Of a DNA stretch of 21,786 bases, positions 20,180 to 21,786 are shown piece by piece (the stretch's first letter is position 1; the number at the start of each line of letters is the position of its first letter). The notes beneath the pieces were generated by a model that was not told the origin of the DNA, searched no databases, and saw only the letters and a list, made by a program, of their open reading frames with translations. The position numbers and the translations under genes are program-made. Origin of the DNA: Candidatus Poribacteria bacterium (lineage in GTDB: Bacteria > Abyssobacteria > SURF-5). The stretch spans positions 1-21,786 of the forward strand of contig JACRIR010000165.1 of assembly GCA_016215705.1 (NCBI GenBank). Direction: 5' to 3'.

Positions 20180-21283
20180 TTATTCGAAGACCAGTTCAAA
20201 CAGAATGTTCACGATTCTCTCTGCCGCATCAGGCTTGCCGAATTGTTTGCTCCGGGACCGCATCAGGCTCAGCGCCTGCTCATTTTGCGAGAGCGCGTTT
20301 ATCCTGTCGGCCAGCCCCTTTCCCCCGAGTTCGCCGTTCATGATTATCTCCGCTGCGCCGGCCTCGACGACTGCGCGAGCGTTCAGTTCCTGATGCCTGT
20401 CCGTCGCATGAGGATACGGCACCAGGATCGCGGGCAATCCGACGGCTGCAATCTCGGCAAGAGTGCTGGCGCCCGCCCGCGACACGACAAGGTCAGCGGC
20501 AGTATATGCAATGACCATGTCGTCAATGAACTGAAAGACGACCGCGGAGAGACCAGCCCGGTCGCAGGCGTCTCTTACCCATCGGTAGTCTTCCTTCCCG
20601 GTCATGAAAACGAGTTGGAAACGCCTCGGATCAAGATGCGGTAGCGCGTCCACCATCGCAACGTTCAACGAATGAGCTCCACGGCTGCCGCCAAGCAAGA
20701 AGACCGTGAACTTGTCCGGATTCAGTCCAAGCTTTCGCCTCGAATCGGCGCGGTCGGCTGTTTCGAGGCGGCGCGGCAGGAAATCGGAGCGGATAGGATT
20801 ACCCACAGCCCGGGATGTCTTTCCGCGGAAATACTGCGACGATTTCTCGAAGTTAACGGCAAGGACGTCCGCGAAGCGGGCGGCCATGCGATTGGCCTTG
20901 CCCGGAACGCAGTTCTGCTCATGTATCACCGTTGGAATCCGCAGAATTCTTGCAGCGAGGACAGGCGGAAGGCTGACGTAGCCACCCGTGCCTATGACGG
21001 CCTGCGGTCGGAATCGAAACAGAATAGCCAGCGACTGAACGACCCCTACCGCCGCGCTCAGGGTCGAGCGAAGCTTCTTGAGAACGTTTCCGCTCGGCAA
21101 TCCCTCGACGATGATTGACCTGAACGGTATCATCTTCTCGGCGGCGACGCGCTCTTCAAGGGATCCCTTTTTCCCGAGATACATGAGCTGGAGATTAGGG
21201 TCCCGTCTCTTCAGTTCTTCGGCGATGGCGACTGCGGGGAACACATGTCCGCCGGTGCCGCCGCCCGCAAGCGCAACTTTCAT
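20180..21283 (-). CDS. murG: Undecaprenyl-PP-MurNAc-pentapeptide GlcNAc transferase MurG
   Basis: Peripheral inner-membrane GT-B glycosyltransferase that converts lipid I to lipid II. 367 residues. Seen: first glycine loop GGGTGGHVFPAVAIA (7-21), second loop GTGGYVS (98-104), I-H-E-Q-N (120-124), LLGGSRGAHSLN (196-207), and the UDP-GlcNAc site SRAGASTLAE with Glu277 followed by LVPYPHATDRHQ. GAGGA lies 6 nt before the ATG. It is the first gene of the leftward dcw run in the window; upstream is about 500 nt of repeat elements instead of ftsW, which is the usual neighbour. Confidence 0.98.
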   Translation of the reverse strand: MKVALAGGGTGGHVFPAVAIAEELKRRDPNLQLMYLGKKGSLEERVAAEKMIPFRSIIVEGLPSGNVLKKLRSTLSAAVGVVQSLAILFRFRPQAVIGTGGYVSLPPVLAARILRIPTVIHEQNCVPGKANRMAARFADVLAVNFEKSSQYFRGKTSRAVGNPIRSDFLPRRLETADRADSRRKLGLNPDKFTVFLLGGSRGAHSLNVAMVDALPHLDPRRFQLVFMTGKEDYRWVRDACDRAGLSAVVFQFIDDMVIAYTAADLVVSRAGASTLAEIAAVGLPAILVPYPHATDRHQELNARAVVEAGAAEIIMNGELGGKGLADRINALSQNEQALSLMRSRSKQFGKPDAAERIVNILFELVFE

Positions 21284-21309: not shown

Positions 21310-21441
21310 CTAGTGTAGTGTCTCTAACGCTTCTTTACATTGATCTTCGGGGACAGTCCCGATTCTACGGCGCAAAGCGCCCGTAAATCCGGGACGGTCC
21401 CCTTCGCAGCGCTTCAAGTTATTTCTGAGACACTACACTAG
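21310..21441. mobile_element. CTAG-bounded MITE-like element 1
   Basis: 132 bp with perfect 15-bp terminal inverted repeats: CTAGTGTAGTGTCTC (21310-21324) and its reverse complement (21427-21441). The inside is itself a palindrome: GGGGACAGTCCCGATT (from 21349) faces a matching arm ending GGTCCCC (21402), followed on both sides toward the centre by CGGCGC/GCGCCCG around AAA. No coding potential. Probably a non-autonomous element. Confidence 0.75.
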
Positions 21442-21545
21442 TAAAGAGACACACTAATTGCGAAACATTAGGCCGAATGAGTTCCCATTTCCAAAAGCTC
21501 ATGCGCCATTTGTAATGTTTTACTGTTTCTGTGTCGACATACTAG
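21438..21545. mobile_element. CTAG-bounded MITE-like element 2
   Basis: 108 bp sharing its left CTAG with element 1 and its right CTAG with element 3. The ends align without gaps over 33 bp with 23 identities, including CTAGTA, GACACA and AAACATTA blocks. The terminal repeats are more diverged than those of elements 1 and 3, suggesting greater age. Confidence 0.6.
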
Positions 21546-21651
21546 TGTGCTGAGTCATAAAGACGTAATCAGTTCCATGGGCCAAAATCTCAGCAAAATC
21601 GGACAAAACCGCATGTAACTTCATAAACGAATTAATGACTCAGGACACTAG
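21542..21651. mobile_element. CTAG-bounded MITE-like element 3
   Basis: 110 bp. The left end CTAGTGTGCTGAGTCAT (21542-21558) matches the reverse complement of the right end (21635-21651) at 16 of 17 positions, with weaker matching further in. The AT-rich inside has no coding potential. Shares CTAG with both neighbours. Confidence 0.75.
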
Positions 21652-21781
21652 TAGAGCGCTTCCTAAGTAACGTTGCAATAGCCATAAAGAACGAGATTCT
21701 TCGCTTCGCTCAGAATGACGGTTATTGTTAGGCTCATCCTCAAAATGCTTATGCTATGTTATTTAGGAAACGCGGTACTAG
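21648..21781. mobile_element. CTAG-bounded MITE-like element 4
   Basis: 134 bp. The left end CTAGTAGAGCGCTTCCTAAG aligns with the reverse complement of the right end (CTAGTACCGCGTTTCCTAAA) over 35 bp with 27 identities. Near its middle it carries ATTCTTCGCTTCGCTCAGAA, a small imperfect hairpin (ATTCT/AGAAT) of a type that I associate with dispersed repeats in many bacterial genomes. It ends 5 nt before the window end. Confidence 0.65.
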
Positions 21782-21786
21782 ATTCC

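Follow-up and report, generated by a model that had tools for sequence, protein, structure and literature searches.

Transposons of the IS630 family, such as IS630 of Shigella sonnei and ISY100, carry one transposase gene, move by a cut-and-paste mechanism and duplicate a TA target (PMC2170065). Bacterial MITEs with comparable ends have been described as well: RUP of Streptococcus pneumoniae is a 107-bp element whose ends resemble those of IS630-Spn1, and RUP, BOX and SPRITE elements are known to cluster and to insert into one another (PMC3049150). In Pseudomonas syringae, the 100-bp MITEPsy1 inserts at CTAG or YTAA (PMC3189936). Pithoviruses harbor two MITE-like repeat families, M1 and M2, which lie side by side and have a target dinucleotide in common (PMC10664404). 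In plants, unrelated non-autonomous elements were reported to form linear arrays without nesting, namely the SaTar elements of guayule and rice and the MITE multimers of rice, and this type of array architecture was said to be undescribed in prokaryotes (PMC5907723).

The locus presented here, a chain of four short elements (E1 to E4) in the genome of a Candidatus Poribacteria bacterium, resembles each of these systems in part. Like the elements, the IS630 of the same genome and its relatives feature CTAG at both ends; unlike IS630 and ISY100, E1 to E4 lack a transposase gene and are linked in chains whose members are unrelated. The clusters of RUP, BOX and SPRITE, in contrast, are described as nested or grouped and not as end-to-end chains on one common target, and their ends are different. 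MITEPsy1 differs by its suggested IS5 origin, its 4-bp duplication and its ends, whereas the pithovirus repeats comprise two families in a giant virus, with no identified transposase and no CTAG target. SaTar elements are Mu-like and target microsatellites, while the arrays of E1 to E4 combine IS630-type ends and a CTAG target in a bacterium. The array thus functions in the SaTar manner without belonging to the SaTar type. Its parts are already known, i.e., IS630, the targeting of CTAG, IS630-derived bacterial MITEs and side-by-side MITEs with a common target dinucleotide. Arrays of this open-ended, non-nested type, built from unrelated MITEs, appear to be new for a bacterium, and no description of such an array form in bacteria was found in the open-access literature searched. 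The arrays offer a simple rule for bacterial transposons, according to which the ends complete the target and one rare CTAG is replaced by two. Given the rarity of CTAG and the stop codon TAG within it, an insertion can be accommodated in an operon of essential genes and leave the neighboring genes unbroken. In the present case, moreover, the transposase can be identified and the target rule is directly testable.

The four-element chain and its place between ftsW and murG

The window, i.e., the whole stretch of 21,786 nucleotides that was analysed, carries at positions 21310-21781 (472 bp) four elements with terminal inverted repeats which lie end to end and measure 132, 108, 110 and 134 bp; no strand is assigned to any of them. 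E1 (21310..21441) is a 132-bp MITE with perfect terminal inverted repeats of 15 bp (CTAGTGTAGTGTCTC) and an internal palindrome (GGGGACAGTCCC/GGGACGGTCCCC). E2 (21438..21545) is a MITE-like element of 108 bp with imperfect terminal inverted repeats (12/16), and ends of its type read CTAGTAACGAGACACACTAATTGCG and CTAGTATGTCGACACAGAAAC. The 110-bp MITE E3 (21542..21651) is bordered by the terminal inverted repeats CTAGTGTnCTGAGTCAT, and the 134-bp MITE E4 (21648..21781) by CTAGTA(n)GCGnTTCCTAA. Neighboring elements have one CTAG in common at each join, at 21438..21441 for E1 and E2, at 21542..21545 for E2 and E3 and at 21648..21651 for E3 and E4. An earlier inspection of the letters without database searches (in the following the sequence-only reading) had delimited the same four CTAG-bounded elements, and their lengths, common sites and exact coordinates were reproduced.

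Within the first 16 bases of the terminal repeats, 15 positions are paired in E1, 12 in E2, 15 in E3 and 13 in E4. Folding into hairpins is far stabler than for shuffled sequence, with z values of -9.3 (E1), -3.1 (E2), -5.0 (E3) and -5.4 (E4). E1 to E4 thus unite the short length, the terminal inverted repeats and the stable hairpin of MITEs. No open reading frame of at least 80 amino acids lies inside the chain and the elements are too short for a transposase gene, which is likewise a feature of MITEs. CTAG is absent from the interior of all four elements, and scans of the chain for Rfam families, promoters and terminators yielded nothing indicating a regulatory role.

The accumulation of CTAG in the chain stands out against the rest of the genome. 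The window holds 12 such sites in 21.8 kb, five of them within the 472 bp of the chain. In 531 kb sampled from the genome, CTAG occurs at a density of 0.39 per kb (L266-L305; 0.27 in coding and 1.02 in non-coding sequence), and the first 223 kb of this sample gave 0.34 per kb versus 2.98 expected from base composition, so that the motif is about 8-9 times rarer than predicted. Given this strong avoidance of CTAG, with a background of 0.34-0.39 per kb, five copies in 472 bp are not due to chance.

The window ends 5 bp beyond the chain, and its final 141 bases recur without a mismatch at the end of contig C52. On that contig, murF-mraY-murD-ftsW are read in the direction that murG-murC have in the window (gene names were assigned by reading the translations). 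Due to this overlap, the chain can be placed between ftsW and murG, where it interrupts a murD-ftsW-murG-murC operon of division and cell-wall genes. A continuation of the chain past position 21786, which the sequence-only reading had considered, did not appear: E4 is the last element and is followed by ftsW on C52. The outer CTAG of E4 (21778..21781, minus strand) contains in its TAG the stop codon of ftsW, whose open reading frame ends with ...GGA ATC TAG. On the other side, murG (20180..21283, minus strand) lies downstream of the chain, and 26 bp separate its start codon from the outer CTAG (21310). Collapsing the chain to a single CTAG would leave a spacer of 26 bp between ftsW and murG, and both flanking reading frames are intact. 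In two genomes of the same family but of other genera (G001 and G002; murG orthologues at 71-77% identity), ftsW is located directly upstream of murG with a comparably short, insert-free spacer. As these relatives lack the insert, the ftsW-murG junction represents an insertion site unoccupied in both of them, as had been looked for on the basis of the sequence-only reading. Filled and empty versions of a site, as known for MITEs, thus exist at this locus, the comparison covering the ftsW-murG junction alone, against G001 and G002.

The location at a contig end and the repetitive nature of its parts raise the question of whether the chain was created by an assembly that joined repeats, the more so as the overlap between contigs C93 and C52 measures exactly 141 bp, which is typical of a k=141 assembly graph. 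Such an artefact is nevertheless highly improbable. With lengths of 108-134 bp, all elements fall below the 141-bp overlap word; a single graph word thus covers an element together with both flanks, and joins inside the contig are therefore unlikely to be artefacts. Moreover, chains also occur inside the long contigs C9, C89, C90 and C168, and the gene order across the break, ftsW and then murG, is that of the relatives.

Stop codons are found at other element borders, too. Of 57 outer CTAG edges in the genome, 16 supply the TAG that terminates an open frame of 100 codons or more, compared to 47 of 414 CTAG sides taken from the sample. Survival may favor insertion at stop codons, and some of these edges could instead belong to genes truncated by the insertion.

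Copies and further chains in the genome

All four elements are multi-copy and occur solo or with other partners and in other orders, as the sequence-only reading would have it. For E1, the genome contains 24 matches at an identity of at least 87%, mostly of full length. E2 recurs in other joins, with three further copies of 94-95% and two of 77% identity; E3 has seven further matches at 98-99%, one of them cut short, and about twenty further copies of E4 show 95-100% identity. The boundaries of the copies are constant and the flanks differ from copy to copy, which corresponds to the dispersed multi-copy occurrence of MITEs. Neither a lack of other copies nor a 470-bp block that always behaves as one unit was observed, the two findings which the sequence-only reading had named as speaking against it.

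The same CTAG rule applies to two additional elements, E5 (109 bp; C84:27297-27405) and E6 (111 bp; C84:47595-47705), and likewise to variants of E2 and E4. A census based on sequence searches and on two contig samples chosen by number (531 kb) revealed at least six families, 35 CTAG sites common to two elements and about 90 one-sided edges, the latter including a few at contig ends or of borderline nature. All of the shared sites (35/35) are situated at element ends, i.e., the elements form non-nested linear arrays of unrelated members as in the SaTar type. The longest other chain, E2b-E4b-E4-E3, is located at C9:17497-18019.

The recurrence of chains in the genome could also be understood if a chain were one composite element, moved or inherited as a unit. 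This has next to no probability, as each element is also encountered alone and with other partners, orders and orientations. The 32 most clearly classified joins represent 25 end-to-end types, five within one family; hence pairs are not copied as units, and movement of a composite unit was rejected on these grounds.

Beyond this genome, a strict three-CTAG chain pattern was applied to 386 genomes and returned three chains in the genome under study and none in the control. The same pattern gave isolated matches in eight other genomes, with printed ends that lack matching inverted repeats, and the plasmid records searched contained no related sequence. E1-type ends were also detected in another genus of the family (G002: L114, L109) and in G032, a distant genome with a pair of them 174 bp apart on contig C3 (L112). 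The occurrence of E1-like MITEs thus extends beyond this species.

A further observation concerns the cores of the elements. REP-like palindromes occupy the core of E1 (21349-21402; GGGGACAGTCCC) and that of E4 (21690-21720; GAGATTCTTCGCTTCGCTCAGAATGAC) and are unrelated to the IS630-type ends that enclose them. Further cores of this kind are CCCCCTTTGAAAAAGGGGG in a 101-bp variant of E4 (C50:937-1037) and GTAGGGGCACGGCGCGCCGTGCCCCTAC in E5 and E6, and all of these are also present elsewhere in the genome. A given type of end was seen around different cores, and a given core between different ends, as though element cores had been swapped or captured.

Kinship with IS630 and the target site

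The genome encodes one intact IS630-family transposase (C250:30821-31960, 379 aa), which scored 213.7 bits with the profile NF033545 (cut-off 100) and 72 bits with DDE_3 (cut-off 28.6). With an IS630 equivalog transposase featuring a DDE_3 domain, the C250 element belongs to the IS630 family. It comprises 1254 bp (C250:30742-31995), possesses E4-type ends and itself abuts an E4-type end. The ends of E4 match both ends of this element (z 6.8 and 4.9), and E4-type ends were also found on IS630s of many phyla. Likewise, relatives of the C250 transposase at 51-66% identity, from many phyla, have similar element ends, and related IS630 copies from other phyla carry CTAG at both ends in at least 54 of the 60 measured. 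The ends of E1 match both ends of an IS630 from the distant genome G039 with a consistent left/right pairing (z 5.9 and 5.0), and those of E3 the surviving end of a defective IS630 of the same genome as the chain (z 5.3 and 5.1). The latter (L068; C57:1-383), with its E3-type end, contains an N-terminal and a middle (EKSQIQALDRTQP...) piece of a transposase in different frames and is cut by the contig end. Its N-terminal piece alone gave no significant match to a family model; the assignment to IS630 is based on a six-frame profile match and on the EKSQIQALDRTQP segment, which is also present in intact IS630 transposases. For E2, the other IS630 loci searched provided no matching end.

Judged by their ends, at least three of the four elements, namely E1, E3 and E4, are very probably MITEs derived from different subgroups of the IS630 (Tc1/mariner) family, and E2 is provisionally filed as an IS630-derived MITE. 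The sequence-only reading had proposed MITE families of the IS630/Tc1-mariner type for the entire chain, which is borne out by the end matches of E4, E3 and E1 and lacks a parent in the case of E2. As only one intact IS630 transposase was assembled, E1 to E3 may have been moved by transposases which are now lost or unassembled.

All canonical element edges read CTAG, which is compatible with a duplication of either TA or CTAG, and a target consensus longer than CTAG was sought and not found. Duplication of four bases (CTAG or YTAA) would point to an IS5-like group instead of IS630, with MITEPsy1, which inserts at these sites and generates a 4-bp duplication, as a precedent (PMC3189936). One copy of E4 (L039; C166) indeed has CTAA on both sides, edges compatible with an exact duplication of 4 bp, for which no mutation would be required, as well as with insertion at CTAA and a single mutation. 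However, the ends of E4, E3 and E1 match IS630-family elements with transposase genes or remnants thereof, and an IS630 relative (L133) has two different flanks, ATAG and CTAG, as predicted for TA duplication. An IS5-like origin is therefore very improbable. We infer that TA is the duplicated part of the target. Duplication of TA in the course of cut-and-paste transposition was described for ISY100 (PMC2170065), and a preference of IS630 for the TA in CTAG is stated in the title of Tenzen and Ohtsubo (1991), as cited in PMC2170065.

Proposed growth of the chain and the use of element edges

From the comparison of sequences, the chain very probably arose by successive cut-and-paste insertion of IS630-type MITEs at the TA within CTAG. 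An IS630-type transposase would excise an element and insert it at this TA, which would thereby be duplicated. Since the element starts with G and ends with C, both edges would read CTAG after the insertion, and each insertion would consume one CTAG target and create two. Due to the lack of CTAG inside the elements, later insertions would be possible only at the edges, and chains would grow without nesting. As CTAG is rare, absent inside the elements and usually a harmful target inside genes, an occupied and tolerated site would become the richest local source of targets. Any family that targets CTAG could add to these edges, resulting in an open-ended, non-nested chain. At the locus studied, four insertions would have gathered at the CTAG that holds the stop codon of ftsW, leaving the frames of ftsW and murG intact. 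That an insertion at the TA in CTAG recreates its target had been put forward in the sequence-only reading, and the solo copies, the many joins, the empty locus and the IS630 end matches of E4, E3 and E1 argue for it. E4 could putatively be mobilised in trans by the C250-type IS630 transposase, an intact enzyme whose element has E4-type ends; the order of insertions, the transposase moving E2 and present-day activity are what we infer beyond this.

The sequence-only reading had further suggested that the families may prefer each other's ends. In such a case, a transposase, or a transposase bound to resident ends, would direct new insertions to existing element ends. The number of joins appears to favor such an attraction, as 35 joins among about 80 elements contrast with about 7 expected if the 770-900 non-coding CTAGs were equally usable; for chance to account for 35 joins, only about 150 usable (tolerated or accessible) sites would be needed. 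In the vicinity of existing elements, however, edges make up 113 of about 127 non-coding CTAGs (about 90%); for the 52 element clusters examined, only about 14 further non-coding CTAGs lie at a distance of up to 500 bp. Next to 31 abutting insertions, 3-4 non-abutting neighbors would be expected from local availability, compared to about one found, an estimate subject to the coarse gene prediction and the fragmentation of the assembly. This comparison discriminates in part between an attraction to ends and a limited number of usable sites. The local control thus gave no sign that edges are used in excess of other CTAGs nearby, and there is no target consensus beyond CTAG which the ends would fit better. 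An attraction between ends is accordingly unlikely. The same degree of doubt applies to the idea that several IS630 MITE families, though unrelated, jointly assemble end-to-end arrays in a self-seeding manner, which would concentrate insertions away from genes. For successive insertion at CTAG, no preference for ends is needed once a region is tolerant: since edges dominate the nearby non-coding CTAGs, abutting insertions would be expected anyway.
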